The position numbers and the translations under genes were made by a program. Below, one piece after another: positions 43,845 to 51,298 of a DNA stretch of 64,000 nucleotides. Where the stretch lies: positions 558,001 through 622,000 of the forward strand of contig JAGYIE010000001.1 of NCBI GenBank assembly GCA_018402765.1, given 5' to 3'. This stretch comes from Vicingaceae bacterium. Its GTDB lineage: Bacteria; Bacteroidota; Bacteroidia; Flavobacteriales_E; Vicingaceae. Under the pieces are notes generated by a model, which worked only from the letters and a program-made list of their open reading frames with translations, was not told the origin of the DNA and ran no database searches. Numbering within the stretch: the first letter of the stretch is position 1; the number at the start of each line of letters is the position of its first letter.

Positions 43845-43870
43845 TTTAGTGGTTAGTCCTTGGTTTTATT

Positions 43871-44446
43871 TCAGATTTCAAGCACATAATATTTCCATGT
43901 TGTATTATGAACATCCACATGGTTATTCCAAATTCCTCGATATTGATTATTAAGTTGTATCCCACCTTTTTTATGTAATAAATTTGGCAAATGTGCTACT
44001 TCAATAGTTTGGATATTTACATGTTGCCCATTAAATAATTGATAGATACCTGCATTAGCTTGTGGTGCTTGCCAAAAAGCTTGGCGCTCGGTTAACAAAA
44101 TAGCATAACAACCATCTAAATGATTTTGTCTCAACTGCTCAAGAAATTTTACATCTTGAATTGCACGGTACATTTCATTTGGCGTACCACAATCATCTTT
44201 TGGCATCTTTAATTCAATCACATAACGCTTACCATCTAGTGTCGTTATATAAATATCAATTTCTTTTTTTATTAAATCAGGTAATGGGTTAAATATTCTC
44301 GGGGTTGGGTATTCAAGTCTGACAATTAAGTCAGGGTAACTGCTTCTCAAAAAAAATGCAAGTTCATGTTGTAATCCGAACTCACTATAAAGCTCAATTG
44401 GCGCTTGTTGAATTGTATCGAAAAATCTATTTATTTTATCTAACAT
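43871..44446 (-). CDS. PD-(D/E)XK nuclease superfamily protein
   Basis: This 191-residue protein has the restriction-nuclease core KEIDIYITTLDGKRYVIELK (residues about 61-80), giving the E...D...E-x-K metal centre. Upstream ELYSEFGLQHELAFFLR supplies the usual helix with a conserved Glu. The C-terminal part (LLTERQAFWQ, NLLHKKGGIQ) is of unknown role. Such small stand-alone nucleases occur as defence or cassette genes. It is a single gene flanked by fold-back or CGTTAG-containing spacers in the accessory island. Confidence 0.7.
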   Translation of the reverse strand: MLDKINRFFDTIQQAPIELYSEFGLQHELAFFLRSSYPDLIVRLEYPTPRIFNPLPDLIKKEIDIYITTLDGKRYVIELKMPKDDCGTPNEMYRAIQDVKFLEQLRQNHLDGCYAILLTERQAFWQAPQANAGIYQLFNGQHVNIQTIEVAHLPNLLHKKGGIQLNNQYRGIWNNHVDVHNTTWKYYVLEI

Positions 44447-44603
44447 AATGTTTTACATTTTCGTTTTTAGGCTTACCACTAACGTTTAGTATATGGAAAG
44501 TAGGCAATTTCGAAGCATGGAACTTTCGGTTAAGCACAAAGTTCGATACGAGTCAAAAGGATTGGTTTTATTACTGTTTCGCCTATTCTTTATATACATC
44601 TTG

Positions 44604-44906
44604 TCAGGCGACGTTTTTATCAGCGTACTGTTTTATTTCATTCAACTCGTTTCCCCTATTTTCCTTTCCTTCTTCGATATCAAAATCGTCTTGAAGTCCG
44701 AGCCAAAATTTAGCTGAGTTTCCAAAATATTTACTCAATCGCAAAGCAGTATCAGCTGTTATTCGACGTCGACCTTTTACGATTTCAGAAATTCGAGTTT
44801 GCGGAATTTTCAAATCTTTAGAAAGTCGATAAGCCGAAATTTCAAGTGGCTCAAGAAATTCGTAAAGTAAAATTTCGCCAGGATGTACATTTGCTAACTT
44901 TTCCAT
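44604..44906 (-). CDS. higA: HigA-type antitoxin (XRE family)
   Basis: This 100-residue DNA-binding antitoxin starts with the HigA/VapI signature ANVHPGEILLYEFLEPLEIS. A helix-turn-helix follows (AYRLSKDLKIPQTRISEIVK), then GRRRITADTALRLSKYFGNS and FWLGLQ. It neutralises the HigB toxin encoded 11 bp upstream and probably represses the pair. Toxin-first gene order is typical of higBA. The pair stabilises mobile or cassette DNA in many genomes. Confidence 0.92.
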   Translation of the reverse strand: MEKLANVHPGEILLYEFLEPLEISAYRLSKDLKIPQTRISEIVKGRRRITADTALRLSKYFGNSAKFWLGLQDDFDIEEGKENRGNELNEIKQYADKNVA

Positions 44907-44917
44907 TTTCTCTGTTT

Positions 44918-45199
44918 TTAGTGATAATCGACTATTTCTACTTCGCTCGCATTTCCGCTATTCCACTCAAAAATTATTCGCCATTGTTTGTTAATTCGAA
45001 TGCTGTAAAATCCACTTAAATTTCCGCTTAGCTTTTCAAGTCGGTTGGAAGGTGTAATTCTCAAATCAGCTATGTTTTGCGAATTATTCAACATTCTCAA
45101 TTTTCGGCGTCCAATTTTTTGAATATCAATCGGCATTTTTTTTACTCGATATCCATTCCAAATTTGTTCAGTCTCTTTCGAGCGAAAAGAAACAATCAT
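44918..45199 (-). CDS. higB: HigB-type toxin (RelE/ParE superfamily)
   Basis: This 93-residue RelE-fold protein is probably a ribosome-dependent mRNA endonuclease. The family motifs are NIADLRITPSNRLEKLSGNL, SGFYSIRINKQWRIIFEW and the closing EVEIVDYH, the last forming the conserved C-terminal strand. It is the first gene of the higBA pair. The sequence CGTTAGTAACG stands 13 bp upstream of its start, the same 11-mer found upstream of the integrase gene. Confidence 0.92.
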   Translation of the reverse strand: MIVSFRSKETEQIWNGYRVKKMPIDIQKIGRRKLRMLNNSQNIADLRITPSNRLEKLSGNLSGFYSIRINKQWRIIFEWNSGNASEVEIVDYH

Positions 45200-45263: not shown

Positions 45264-45398
45264 ATGTTGCTAACGGTCTCGGCTATGCGTAGTGAGGGAT
45301 TTCAACTACTGAACTTCCTACGAAGAACTGAACTTTAATTTTACTACTTTCCTGTCCTACTAAGCACGAGACCCCTGCTTGCGTATAGGTGATGTTGA
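45264..45398. repeat. fold-back element D upstream of higB, interrupted at its end by IS91
   Basis: Arms GGTCTCG (45275-45281) and CGAGACC (45367-45373) pair perfectly across an 85-nt loop. Next to them CTATGCG and TGCGTATAG form a further imperfect pair. The left side begins CTAACG (45270-45275). I recall similar long GGTCTCG elements scattered in flavobacterial genomes, but cannot verify this. The right side runs into the IS91-like element after GATGTTGAAC (ending 45400). Confidence 0.6.
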
Positions 45399-45543
45399 AC
45401 GAATCCTCCCTTCGGTCGGAAGCTTTTGTAGCTAAAGTACAAGATTTTTTAATTTCGAATGAAATATAAACGATTAATCATGTATAAAAAAAAGTAAAAC
45501 CATTTCAGAGCGAGCCTTTGCGGAAGTACAAGGCTTTAGCGTA

Positions 45544-46383
45544 TTGCAAAACAAATTGCAACAGAGTTTTTCAATTAACGGTAAAGCGACAAGCACACTC
45601 AATAATTACCTTCGATGCTTGGCCCACTTAGCCTTACATTACAAAGAAAGTCCTGAAAAACTCTCGGTAGAAAATATTGAAGACTACCTTTACCATTGTC
45701 AAAAGCTTCATAAAACTCCATCTGAAAGCTTCTTTAAACACACCATTTATGGACTTCGAGCCACCTACAAAGTAATGGGCATGGAAGTCAAACGATTTGC
45801 TTTACCTCAAATCAAACGCGATCTTAAATTACCCATTGTCTTAAATCAAGAAGAAGTTAGACGTCTTTTAAATGCTCCAAAATACCTTAAACATCGTTTA
45901 ATTATTGGCGTATTATATGGTTGTGGACTTCGCAGTTACGAACTATGCAACCTAAAATTAAGCGATCTTGATTTTGATCGTAAAACAGTTTTTATTCCCA
46001 AGAAAAAAGGAAAAGTAGATCGTTATGTTCCCTTGAGTGATCACTTAGTTAGAGGGTTAAAAAAATACGTTAGAACAGAAAATCCTCAAGTATACCTTTT
46101 TAACAGTCAGGTTTCTAAAGATGGAAATACACGGGGATTAACCACCAATGGAATCCGTTGGATAATTAAAGAAAATCGAAGTAAAATAGGTAGTTCTAAG
46201 AAGGTAACCGCTCATACCTTACGACACACTTTTGCTACTCATTTGTTAGAGTATGGGGTTGATATTGTTAGTCTAAAAGAGCTGTTAGGTCATGCTCACA
46301 TTGAAATGACTTTGACTTATTTGCATGTAGCTAATTTACCAAGCAGCTCAAAGTTTAGCCCATTAGACAGGCTTTATCAGTAG
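45544..46383 (+). CDS. tyrosine recombinase of the IS91-like element
   Basis: This site-specific recombinase has 279 residues from TTG 45544. The core-binding domain is about residues 1-85. The catalytic domain has Arg130 (GCGLRSYE), His224 and Arg227 (HTLRHTF), His250 (LLGH) and the nucleophile Tyr259 (LTYLHV). The C-terminus reads SSSKFSPLDRL, like the tail of integron integrases. The frame is open further upstream, and ATG 45480 would join it after removal of one A from the A8 run 45486-45493. The real start may therefore need frameshifting. The stop overlaps the transposase GTG start by one base. Confidence 0.85.
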   Translation: MQNKLQQSFSINGKATSTLNNYLRCLAHLALHYKESPEKLSVENIEDYLYHCQKLHKTPSESFFKHTIYGLRATYKVMGMEVKRFALPQIKRDLKLPIVLNQEEVRRLLNAPKYLKHRLIIGVLYGCGLRSYELCNLKLSDLDFDRKTVFIPKKKGKVDRYVPLSDHLVRGLKKYVRTENPQVYLFNSQVSKDGNTRGLTTNGIRWIIKENRSKIGSSKKVTAHTLRHTFATHLLEYGVDIVSLKELLGHAHIEMTLTYLHVANLPSSSKFSPLDRLYQ

Positions 46384-47522
46384 TGCGCCCAAAACATACG
46401 GTAGCTGACATTTTAGAAATGGAAAAGCTACAACTTGATGGCTTGAGTTTAACCTCTTGGCACCATCGGGCTTTGCAGGCAATAAGAAGGTGTAGAACTG
46501 CGGCCATGGGTGGCCACATAGACCAATGTGATTGTTGTCATGGGCTACATATAAGTTACAACAGCTGTAGAAACAGGCACTGCCCTACCTGTCAAGGACA
46601 CAAACGTGAACAATGGATTAACGCTAGAGAAGGTGAATTGCTAAATGTGCCTTATTTTCATTTGGTATTTACCTTACCAAGTGAGTTTAATAGCTATGCT
46701 TTAAGCCACGGTAAAATAGTATACAGTAGTTTATTTAAAGCTGCTTGGCAAACATTAGAACAATTTGGAGCTAACCCAAAACATTTGGGTGGCAAAATGG
46801 GCATGATTGCTATTTTACACAGCTGGGGACAAAACATGACTTTACATCCTCATTTACATTGTATTGTTCCGGGTGGTGGAATATCTAAAAGCGGCAAGTG
46901 GAGAAAAGCAAAAAACAAGGAAAAATACTTGTTTAATGTAAAATCGATGAGCCATGTTTTTAGGGCTAAGTTCGTGGATGAACTTAGAAAAAGTGAGTTA
47001 ACTATTGCACAGAAAGTTTACGATGCTGTGTTCAAAAAGAAGTGGGTAGTATATGCTAAACAGCCTTTTAGAAGCCCAAAATATGTGATAGAATACTTGG
47101 GCAGGTACACCCATAAGATCGCCATCAGCAATCATCGAATCTTACAGATTAACAGCGAAAACAAGACAGTTACCTTCTCAGTAAAAGATTACAAGCATGG
47201 CGGAAGGAAGTCTATCTTAACATTGTCAAATCAGGAATTTATTCGGCGATTTGCATTGCATATTCTACCAAAAGGGTTTACGCGAATAAGGCATTATGGA
47301 ATTTTAAGCAGCAGTTGGAAAAAAGAAAAATTACCCCAACTACAGGCTAAGTTAAGCACTACTCAACTAGAAGTTTTAAGACCGAAAGAACCGCTCTTAC
47401 ATCGTAGATGCCCGACTTGTAAAAAAGGAAAATTGCATACCATTTATCTATTTAATGAAAGAGGTCCTCCCAAAAGGTGGAGAGAACTTTTAAAAGGTAA
47501 ATCACTAACAATGAGTAATTAA
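46383..47522 (+). CDS. IS91-family (HUH) transposase
   Basis: This 379-residue rolling-circle transposase starts with an N-terminal zinc finger with Cys clusters CDCCHGLHISYNSCRNRHCP (residues 49-68). The HUH-type metal motif HPHLHC (155-160) follows. The catalytic tyrosine region is YVIEYLGRYTHKIAISNHRI (from 234; candidates Tyr234, 238 and 242). A C-terminal Cys pair RRCPTCKKGKL ends the conserved part. It cleaves one DNA strand at the element's origin and transfers it to a GAAC/CAAG-like target. The GTG start overlaps the recombinase stop (TAGTG), so the two are translationally coupled. Confidence 0.92.
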   Translation: MRPKHTVADILEMEKLQLDGLSLTSWHHRALQAIRRCRTAAMGGHIDQCDCCHGLHISYNSCRNRHCPTCQGHKREQWINAREGELLNVPYFHLVFTLPSEFNSYALSHGKIVYSSLFKAAWQTLEQFGANPKHLGGKMGMIAILHSWGQNMTLHPHLHCIVPGGGISKSGKWRKAKNKEKYLFNVKSMSHVFRAKFVDELRKSELTIAQKVYDAVFKKKWVVYAKQPFRSPKYVIEYLGRYTHKIAISNHRILQINSENKTVTFSVKDYKHGGRKSILTLSNQEFIRRFALHILPKGFTRIRHYGILSSSWKKEKLPQLQAKLSTTQLEVLRPKEPLLHRRCPTCKKGKLHTIYLFNERGPPKRWRELLKGKSLTMSN

Positions 47523-48761: not shown

Positions 48762-48982
48762 TCCGCATAAATTTAAGTCGCTAAATTAGCCCAAATTTTC
48801 CGTTTATCTCGTTTTTCAATATACATTTCGTTCGTTTCATTGTTGGTCTATCCGAGCGTAGGCAAAAAAATAGGCTCTTTTGGTTTTTTGCGTTTGGATT
48901 GTGGGTCGGCAAAAAACCAAATGTGCCTGTTTGCGCGTTGGCTTTTTCAGCATGGCATACAACTTGTATATATCCGCATAAA
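48762..48982. repeat. 10-bp direct repeat flanking fold-back element A
   Basis: TCCGCATAAA occurs at 48762-48771 and again at 48973-48982 in the same orientation, 211 bp apart, one on each side of the large palindrome. Both copies follow a T/G-rich run (GTTCATG, GTATATA). It could mark the ends of a mobile unit or of a recombination site. Confidence 0.5.
48872..48928. repeat. fold-back element A next to the island integrase
   Basis: Perfect 13-bp arms TTTGGTTTTTTGC (48879-48891) and GCAAAAAACCAAA (48909-48921) enclose a 17-nt loop; outer AGGC (48872-48875) pairs with GCCT (48925-48928). A further arm GGCAAAAAAA (48861) faces GGCTTTTTCAGC (48939). On the minus strand this sequence translates as ANAQTGTFGFLPTHNPNAKN, an artefact seen when such elements are taken for genes. 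It lies about 80 bp past the integrase stop codon. Confidence 0.8.
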
Positions 48983-49006
48983 CATAGTACTTTTTTTACT
49001 TTTAAC

Positions 49007-50770
49007 CTATTCAATTGTTTCTAAACTATCTAATCGATCTAAAGGACTTTGTATTCGTGATGAACTTGCCTTACTCACATGCGTATATATAGTAGTCGTT
49101 TTTATACTACTATGCCCCAAAAATTTCTGTATAAATCGAATATCTGTGCCATTCTCCAACAAATGTGTCGCAAAACTATGACGTAAAGTATGCACTGATG
49201 CCCTCTTATCTATTCCAGACTTTTGTATCGCTGCGCGCATTACGGCTTGAACACTTTTAGTGCTGTATGGCTCTCCTGCTATTTGCCCTTTAAATATATA
49301 ACCATCCGAACCTTCCAAATGCATAAAATCCTTTAAATAACAAACAACACTATACGGCAACATCGCCATCCGATCCTTCTTCCCTTTTGCTTCTCTTATG
49401 TGTATCCTATGCTCCCCAAAATCAATATCCCTCCATTGTAAACTAACCACCTCACTAACGCGTAAACCTGCGCCGTATGTCAGTAATAAAATTAACTTAT
49501 GCTTACTGTTTCTAACAGCATTAAATACGCGCTTGCATTCTTCCATACTTAATACACTTGGCAAAGTCTTCTCCTTTTTTGGCCGTGGAATCTCCCAGTT
49601 TGTATCCTTCCATTCCAATACGTATCTGAAATAAAACTTTAAGGCATTCAAAGCATTATGACCTGAAGATGAACTTAATCCTCGCTCAGAAAATTGTGCT
49701 AAATACTTAATTACCTCCTTGCGTGTAATCGCTGATGGATCCCTAAAGTTGTAATATCCAATGAACGAAATGAATGCACCACTATAGGTTTTTAACGTCG
49801 AAGAACTGTAATTCATAGCCATTAACATGTCCATCAAATCATGCAAATAATTTGAAGCTCCTTCAGGCACGGTTTGTAACAAATGCTGCTTCACATTACT
49901 CAACTTTTTTGCCTTCGCGTTAATTGTGTTTTTAGCCGACAAATACTGCCTAGGTAATTCATTTTTAATCTCTGCTTCTGTAGGCTCAAAATGATACGCT
50001 AAGGCTGTTAATAAAGCAGGAGTCGCAGGCAGTAAGTAGCAGCCTAAATGTTTGCTATATATACTATAACTTAATCGCTTCACAATTTCTATTAGACGAG
50101 TACTCTCTGGCAAAAATACCCGCATATATCGAGGATCAATGTCGTGCGTCTGTAACTTTATTACAACTTTTTTTAATGGCTTTCTTTTAAAATCATAGAA
50201 ATTATTCGGAAAAATAGAAGCACCTATAATAGCTTCTACCTTATCTTTAACGAACTTATGTCTATAAATCATGTATACTCTATGAGAACTATTCCAATGT
50301 ACCCCCTTTACATTTTTTAAAGCATTAACGATAGGTGCAACATAATTAAGTTGCAAAACCCAATATTTTCCAACATCTTCTTTTAATACATACTTCAATC
50401 TAGGGTCAACTGTCTCTTTTGACAATTTATGTGCAGAATCAGAACCCGTTATCAAAACGTTCTGCTGCATTGCGCCAGTAAAGGCTATGGGGAGATGGTC
50501 TCGATTACTTTTAAAATCGGCTCCCGTTAGTGATGAATCTGTACGTTGAATTGCTGCGATCTTTAATACATAAGGCCAAGGCAGCGCCTTTAATAATTTA
50601 TAATTCGAAGAATTGTAATCACAATACCAACAACCGTGCGTTTTACTATAAATAGCGTTTACTTTTCTAAGTTCATTACGCAAAAAAGTATCGTAAGGAA
50701 AAAACAAACCAATCCTATCAGCACCTCTATGCCATATCTTTTGTACAGTAATTGACTTCTCTTTAATCAT
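49007..50770 (-). CDS. IntI-like tyrosine recombinase with three N-terminal HARP-like repeats
   Basis: This 587-residue protein has an N-terminal half with three similar units (about residues 18-66, 136-182, 214-262). Each has a hydrophobic strand, an aromatic/proline step, a helix and a closing aromatic strand (IYSKTHGCWYCDY; VHWNSSHRVYMIY; IYSKHLGCYLLP), like the HARP module. The core-binding domain is about 305-390. The catalytic domain has Arg437 (GLRVSE), Lys in EAKGKKDR, His527/Arg530 (HTLRHSF), His553 (LGHS) and Tyr562 (IYTHV). The tail SSSRIQSPLDRL matches the IntI form VRSPLD. The extra helix that IntI has between the Lys and the second His regions is absent. It borders the cassette-like genes. 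Confidence 0.85.
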   Translation of the reverse strand: MIKEKSITVQKIWHRGADRIGLFFPYDTFLRNELRKVNAIYSKTHGCWYCDYNSSNYKLLKALPWPYVLKIAAIQRTDSSLTGADFKSNRDHLPIAFTGAMQQNVLITGSDSAHKLSKETVDPRLKYVLKEDVGKYWVLQLNYVAPIVNALKNVKGVHWNSSHRVYMIYRHKFVKDKVEAIIGASIFPNNFYDFKRKPLKKVVIKLQTHDIDPRYMRVFLPESTRLIEIVKRLSYSIYSKHLGCYLLPATPALLTALAYHFEPTEAEIKNELPRQYLSAKNTINAKAKKLSNVKQHLLQTVPEGASNYLHDLMDMLMAMNYSSSTLKTYSGAFISFIGYYNFRDPSAITRKEVIKYLAQFSERGLSSSSGHNALNALKFYFRYVLEWKDTNWEIPRPKKEKTLPSVLSMEECKRVFNAVRNSKHKLILLLTYGAGLRVSEVVSLQWRDIDFGEHRIHIREAKGKKDRMAMLPYSVVCYLKDFMHLEGSDGYIFKGQIAGEPYSTKSVQAVMRAAIQKSGIDKRASVHTLRHSFATHLLENGTDIRFIQKFLGHSSIKTTTIYTHVSKASSSRIQSPLDRLDSLETIE

Positions 50771-50923: not shown

Positions 50924-51298
50924 ATGATGCAACGAATTAAAAAGTGTAAAATTTGCAAAAAAACAATTTCGGGAAGAGAAGATAAAGTCTTTTGCTCCAT
51001 CTACTGTAAAAATTATTATCATGTAAAATTGAGAAGTGTTACCAATAATGAGGCAAAGCAAATTGATGAAATCCTCCATAGAAACAGATCCATATTGCTA
51101 GAGGTGTTAGGTAAAAATATGATTCAAAAAAAGGTCGATCGACTAACCCTTTCAAAGAAGAAGTTTAACTTCAAATACCTAACACATTTCAACATTAATA
51201 AACAAGGTAAAATGTATCACTTCCTGTATGATATTGCCTGGATGGAGTTTTCAGACGACGAAATATTAATTATCCGAAGAAAGACATCAGCTCAATGA
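50924..51298 (+). CDS. small zinc-ribbon protein (paralogue of 34967)
   Basis: This 124-residue cytoplasmic protein has CKICKKTISGREDKVFCSIY plus C (CxxC-x13-CxxxC, residues 8-31), then LHRNRSILLEVLGKNMIQKK, KKKFNFKYLTHFN and a C-terminal YHFLYDIAWMEFSDDEILII. Order and spacing match the zinc-ribbon protein at 34967-35329, so the two are paralogues. It is divergent from the integrase and may be island cargo or the first gene outside it. The function is unknown. ATG 50927 is an equally good start. Confidence 0.7.
   Translation: MMQRIKKCKICKKTISGREDKVFCSIYCKNYYHVKLRSVTNNEAKQIDEILHRNRSILLEVLGKNMIQKKVDRLTLSKKKFNFKYLTHFNINKQGKMYHFLYDIAWMEFSDDEILIIRRKTSAQ

Follow-up and report, generated by a model that had tools for sequence, protein, structure and literature searches.

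The gene at positions 49,007 to 50,770 of the window (the 64,000-nt stretch of a Vicingaceae genome that was analysed) very probably encodes an integrase that serves an integron-like cassette system of the Bacteroidota, and the enzyme most likely acts as IntI does. Integrons are bacterial systems that collect gene cassettes, and in their integrases the IntI-specific insertion holds the extrahelical bases of attC. Judged on its sequence, the present system is a variant of the integron whose integrase is not an IntI and carries N-terminal modules that resemble HARP, a domain with which the human repair protein SMARCAL1 binds DNA. The accepted definition of an integron integrase requires the IntI-specific domain (PMC9668308, PMC8138268), and this insertion is reported to be essential for IntI function (PMC8138268). 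For the Bacteroidetes, the IntegronFinder 2.0 study records that only array-less integrases had been found earlier, and lists a single complete integron, from Salinibacter ruber (PMC9024848). The literature that we searched, with most subscription journals and all preprints outside its scope, contained no description of integrons or attC arrays of Bacteroidota, or of HARP joined to a tyrosine recombinase.

The integrase and its relation to IntI and Xer

The gene is a single uninterrupted frame, with the following parts (all on the minus strand).

49007 to 50770, minus: integrase gene (HARP-like modules, core-binding domain and catalytic domain); uninterrupted 587-aa ORF
50585 to 50758, minus: module 1, HARP-like, the canonical family copy (residues 5–62; 51 bits to the relatives' HMM; AlphaFold2 pLDDT 87)
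50228 to 50368, minus: module 2, divergent (residues 135–181; 5 bits; equivalent position in the homologue L108)
49973 to 50173, minus: module 3, divergent (residues 200–266; 12 bits; AlphaFold2 fold elements; equivalent position in L108)
49613 to 49840, minus: core-binding SAM-like domain (residues 311–386; Pfam PF13495, E = 6e-13)
49070 to 49552, minus: catalytic domain, full length, without the IntI-specific insertion (residues 407–567; Pfam PF00589, E = 3e-41)
49031 to 49048, minus: SPLDRL tail at the C-terminus, common to IntI (from the translation)

The original prediction of a complete tyrosine recombinase is borne out by the core-binding and full-length catalytic domains, and by the catalytic residues Arg437, His527, Arg530, His553 and Tyr562, which are all kept and are invariant in the alignment of the family. 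The SPLDRL C-terminus that it pointed to is indeed present, and true IntIs have it too. Its description of the enzyme as IntI-like is apt for the simple catalytic domain, which is of the IntI/XerA type, but goes too far otherwise: the IntI-specific domain is absent, and the two catalytic boxes are separated by 60–66 residues in the family (approximately 62 in the window integrase) versus 103–104 in IntI. The highest scores against the curated NCBI families are to the integron integrase TIGR02249 (226 of the 265 bits required, where true IntIs reach 437–488 bits) and to XerA, NF040815 (216 of 220 bits). Because the IntI-specific added domain is absent and the curated cut-off is missed, the integrase is not an IntI in the usual sense, nor is it one by the accepted definition; the system is, nevertheless, integron-like in nearly every other tested feature.

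With XerA, XerC and XerD, the enzyme shares a core-binding and a catalytic domain without an arm-binding domain, and XerA is its best equivalog. However, it attains only about half of the XerC and XerD equivalog cut-offs (175 of 335 and 174 of 330 bits, respectively), it is linked to cassette arrays, and, in a tree of 78 proteins, its catalytic domain is separate from the Xer proteins that the genome itself encodes. This tree unites the IntIs in a clade with support 100 and places the module recombinases in another (support 93); the latter comprises 39 proteins with a module and five without, and one module-bearing protein (L116) lies outside it. The phylogenetic check proposed with the original prediction thus came out in its favour, in that the catalytic domain groups neither with the genome's Xer proteins, as judged by the tree, nor with arm-binding phage or ICE integrases, as judged by domain content. 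An ordinary phage or ICE integrase was considered and ruled out, as there is no arm-binding domain and the family forms a clade of its own. Divergent from the integrase gene, a gene for a small zinc-ribbon-like protein (50924 to 51298) adjoins an rny-like gene.

The N-terminal modules

An HMM made from the modules of relatives only, with the window protein left out of the build, scores 70.9 bits against the whole window protein (1000 shuffles reach at most 6.0 bits), and its three matches are collinear and in register. The internal three-fold repeat that had been proposed is, therefore, present as one strong and two divergent copies, and the same layout recurs in L108, an independent 585-aa homologue from a Saprospiraceae MAG (modules at residues 8–64, 130–176 and 209–251). 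Structure prediction agrees for two of the copies: AlphaFold2 (35 sequences) gives a confident β-β-α-β-β-α-β fold for module 1, and largely the same fold for module 3 (pLDDT mostly 70–82), but module 2 stays below a pLDDT of 50 and is placed by its sequence position and by L108 alone.

The relatives are mostly of 360–430 aa, with one N-terminal module of approximately 65 residues; for those from the same class, the alignment to the window protein starts at about residue 204 or 310. Forms with two modules occur in Aquiflexum, Rufibacter and Adhaeribacter. A first scan of the genome contigs with a single protein as query gave no matches; searched with all modules, 142 of 295 Bacteroidia genomes contain the module recombinase family. 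The fusion of module and recombinase, put forward as undescribed, is not special to the window gene: it is the trait that defines a family found in approximately half of the Bacteroidia genomes sampled, and only the triplication is rare. Three family members of approximately 700 aa (L141, L144 and L151) have an N-terminal half that is apparently a second, degenerate core-binding/recombinase unit preceding the intact one. Outside the Bacteroidota, module-bearing recombinases were seen in metagenome bins only, through either transfer or misbinning: L133 (Spirochaetota MAG), L149 (Undinarchaeota MAG) and L116 (Firmicutes MAG).

The resemblance to HARP claimed at the outset holds for the family, but the window modules themselves fall below the Pfam cut-off. 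Among 177,635 sequences, the module profile picks up the solved HARP domain of SMARCAL1 (4o66) in register, with an E-value of 1.5; under the same profile, the SMARCAL1 domain outranks 5000 of its own shuffles, and hhalign of the profile with the SMARCAL1 HARP segment returns a probability of 87% and a score of 26.8, where 200 shuffles reach at most 15.5. With the Pfam HARP family itself (PF07443; cut-off 25 bits), one family member, L133, scores 29.2 bits and another, L110, 18.6 bits; the window modules give no match at the gathering score, and a search across 60 relative genomes returned sub-threshold matches only. Additionally, DUF5710 weakly matches nine module family members. The likeness to HARP and to the XPB damage-recognition domain comprises a Tyr/Trp sequence pattern, a predicted fold that may be common to them and a weak but specific profile match; the differences are that the module sits on a tyrosine recombinase, and not on an SNF2 or XPB helicase, and that the window copy is under the Pfam cut-off.

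These comparisons also bear on the alternative that the modules are an arm-type or dimerization domain and not junction binders, in which case the likeness to HARP would be that of a common small α/β fold. The low Pfam scores of the window modules are in line with this, as are the structural searches: Foldseek found no significant match in the PDB for the module 1 model, and the best folds aligned by a finer method have a middling Z-score of 6.0 (2.3 Å over 60 residues), which is too low to tell kinship from a commonly recurring arrangement; moreover, 4o66 is absent among the best matches that this aligner listed, and was found by sequence only. On the other hand, the domains that rank first in that search are the damage-recognition domains of archaeal XPB, and the score of L133 and the margin by which SMARCAL1 HARP exceeds its shuffles also speak against this alternative. 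We regard the arm-type or dimerization reading as less likely than not, and homology of the module to HARP as likely. As HARP-type domains, the modules may help to select or hold a folded hairpin at junctions between single- and double-stranded DNA, in place of the missing IntI domain, and modules 2 and 3 would then be extra copies of the junction module.

Cassette arrays and attI sites of the family

In draft genomes, the end of the integrase gene and the end of the contig are often no more than a few hundred bases apart, which led us to suspect repeats downstream. Inspection of 20 regions from relatives indeed revealed, on the integrase strand, direct repeats that each fold as a long, imperfect hairpin of the form RYYYAAC...covarying stem...GTTRRRY, mostly approximately 130 or 190 nt in length; hereafter, these are termed attC-like sites. 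A scan for AACA...stem...CGTT in the first relative loci found 37 sites, all of them downstream and on the integrase strand, with none upstream, none on the other strand and 0.4 in shuffled sequence. An alignment of 23 sites has 13 stem pairs, 12 of which show compensated two-sided changes, and from it a covariance model, R1, was made, leaving out the window sequence. No Rfam family matched in the window or in two of the arrays.

As an independent test, R1 was used to search 80 loci of named organisms that had been fetched with the family alignment. Where at least 1.5 kb of downstream sequence was available, sites occur at 17 of 22 module-bearing recombinases versus none of 33 without a module (p = 4e-10), and 73 of the 78 sites in these loci are downstream of the integrase and on its strand. 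The tail of a cassette (before AAC) is complementary at three out of three bases to its own head (after the preceding GTT) in 41 of 44 close pairs, as expected if the moving unit spans from one G/TT to the next, as in integrons; the corresponding figures are 12% for random pairs and 7/70 within one site. Most cassettes hold a single gene, and 35 of 37 have their longest ORF oriented with the array; 15 of 20 sampled cassette products have no Pfam family. Lastly, for 93 of 110 arm constructs the more favourable fold is that of the bottom strand and not of the top (p = 1e-14), compared with 47 of 99 random segments. The guess, made from the integrase sequence, that its substrates are folded single strands fits these arrays. 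A cation-efflux cassette gene is present at 89% identity in two genera (L085, 11800–12594, and L157, 14204–14998), where its flanks are unrelated and its attC sites differ.

The arrays begin at a site adjoining the integrase gene. Of 31 loci, by our own count, 23 carry a GTT no more than 400 nt past the integrase stop codon that is followed by four bases complementing the first attC tail; this attI commonly takes forms resembling GNATATANACNAGTT. In L011 and L012, two loci of different genera, 1714 bp are identical, integrase included, and the sequences diverge completely straight after CAATCGGGTATAAACAAGTT (CAAGTT), exactly at attI, as expected from the exchange of cassettes at this site. Of 56 family loci, 17 have the sequence TAnnTTTG, the −7 element of Bacteroidota promoters, in the first 100 nt past the stop codon, versus 3.1 in shuffled sequence and 5 on the reverse strand, suggesting that cassettes may be transcribed from a promoter near the end of the integrase gene.

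Could the palindromic sites be unrelated repeats of the REP or MITE kind that lie by chance near an ordinary orphan recombinase, with no cassette system at all? Further palindromic elements do occur in the same regions, and 78 genomes bear sites without a detected module recombinase (see below). However, a dispersed repeat predicts none of the features just described, namely, the strictly same-strand and downstream-only placement, the head–tail complementarity (which holds also between attI and the first site), the split of identical loci exactly at attI, and the mostly single-gene intervals in one orientation; this strongly disfavours the explanation, and we consider it very improbable. For the integron-like system, we propose that the integrase would recombine attC sites with the attI that directly follows the 3' end of its gene, cutting at G/TT within GTTRRRY; that the attC substrate would be the fold adopted by the bottom strand of single-stranded DNA; and that promoter-poor gene cassettes would be inserted, excised and shuffled downstream of attI.

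The parallels with integrons are these: attI adjoins the integrase gene, attC is an imperfect hairpin with RYYYAAC and GTTRRRY cores, and the junction lies at G/TT; cassettes are single-gene, uniformly oriented and complementary from head to tail; the bottom strand gives the better fold; the cargo includes toxin–antitoxin and unknown-function genes; and the integrase has an SPLD tail. In contrast to IntI, the family integrase lacks the approximately 41-residue insertion, scores under the TIGR02249 cut-off and has HARP-like N-terminal modules. It is, furthermore, co-oriented with its array, so that attI is at the 3' end of the gene, and the sites are mostly approximately 130 or 190 nt; R1 finds no sites in 20 genomes from other groups, several of which encode a true IntI.

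Within the Bacteroidia, R1 sites (E ≤ 1e-5) are present in 211 of 295 genomes. Modules and sites co-occur in 133 of these 295, 9 have the module only, 78 sites only and 75 neither (p = 3e-17). The site-only genomes may contain leftover arrays or genes in fragments, or else an integrase of another type. We lean, if only slightly, towards the view that this is a second and very widespread integron lineage of the Bacteroidota, which never had or has lost the IntI clamp domain, recognizes folded single-stranded cassettes through a HARP-type junction domain shared with SMARCAL1, and has been overlooked by surveys based on the IntI domain. A main gene-capture platform of a phylum dominant in the environment and the gut may thus have gone unseen, because searches require the IntI-specific domain; this would raise the question of how a recombinase handles a folded attC without that domain, and would link single-strand recombination to a eukaryotic repair domain.

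The window array and related loci in the same genome

Downstream of the window integrase, on its strand, lie an attI-like site and two attC-like sites that flank a HigBA toxin–antitoxin cassette.

48979 to 48986, minus: TATGTTTA, candidate cassette promoter, one mismatch to TAnnTTTG (from the sequence)
48956 to 48974, minus: attI-like site GATATATACAAGTTGTATG (GATATATACAAG/TTGTATG), 44 nt past the stop codon; matches the relatives' attI and that of the genome's own second locus, GCGATATTTACGAGTTGGCA
45544 to 47522, plus: IS91-like insertion (279-aa tyrosine recombinase and IS91 transposase), inverted within the array (NF033538, 430 bits)
45268 to 45400, minus: attC-like site 1, both cores intact (R1 66.8 bits, E = 7.1e-15)
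44918 to 45199, minus: cassette gene, HigB-like toxin (PF05015, E = 3e-22)
44604 to 44906, minus: cassette gene, HigA-like antitoxin with HTH (PF01381, E = 8e-8)
44477 to 44606, minus: attC-like site 2, 5' core degenerate (TGACAAG; R1 55.3 bits, E = 5.7e-12)
43871 to 44446, minus: next cassette gene, 191 aa, without a confident family
43852 to 43857, minus: ACTAAC, complement of the GTTAGT that ends attC 2; probable remnant of the tail of a third cassette

The AACA...CGTT expression missed both window attC sites, and R1 found both; taken alone, their predicted folds show no preference for the bottom strand. The tail of attC 1 (GTTCAAC) does not match the head of the window attI (GTTGTAT), and together with the damaged 5' core of attC 2 this indicates that part of the array has probably been lost. 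The window system looks small and partly decayed, with one insertion sequence and one damaged-core site. The IS91-like element is placed between attI and attC 1 and is a single copy: a search for other copies in the genome, from which its ends might be defined, found none. The tyrosine recombinase upstream of its transposase likewise ends in SPLDRL. On the plus strand, the left side of the element is near the 5' core of the attC (GTTGAAC); as GAAC is a target of IS91-type elements, attC sites may attract it. A palindromic element of approximately 110 bp (GCACATTTGGTTTTTTGCC...AAAAAACCAAAAGAGC) lies at 48868 to 48932 of the window and is also found in L079, L085, L011 and L092; it often follows immediately after an attI or attC core, and is perhaps a common cassette leader.

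The rest of the genome contains five further strong R1 sites and a second locus (L102, 11017–14031; contig C10, 580000–599900). Here, an integrase remnant, whose best segment is 31 residues at 77% identity, is followed by the attI GCGATATTTACGAGTTGGCA, a GmrSD restriction gene and an attC with a complementary tail, TGCCAAC; neighbouring sites have lost GTT. On this evidence, the C10 locus appears to be a second, decayed integron of the window kind.

That decay has a bearing on whether the system, while real, survives in the window as a relic, its integrase and sites no longer moving cassettes. A truncated integrase and three sites without GTT elsewhere in the genome would fit, as would the features of the window itself: no more than two recognizable sites in the vicinity of the gene, the 5' core of one being mutated, the insertion inside the array, and an attI head unmatched by the first attC. 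Yet the 587-aa frame is intact with all of its catalytic residues, the attI-like site is intact, and attC 1 keeps both cores, and so we rate a relic as a serious possibility that falls somewhat short of even. Also in this genome (L103, 13086–18133), a defence-like pair of genes, for an AAA_13 ATPase and what seems to be an adenine-specific DNA methylase, lies beside an attC-like site that lacks the 3' core.
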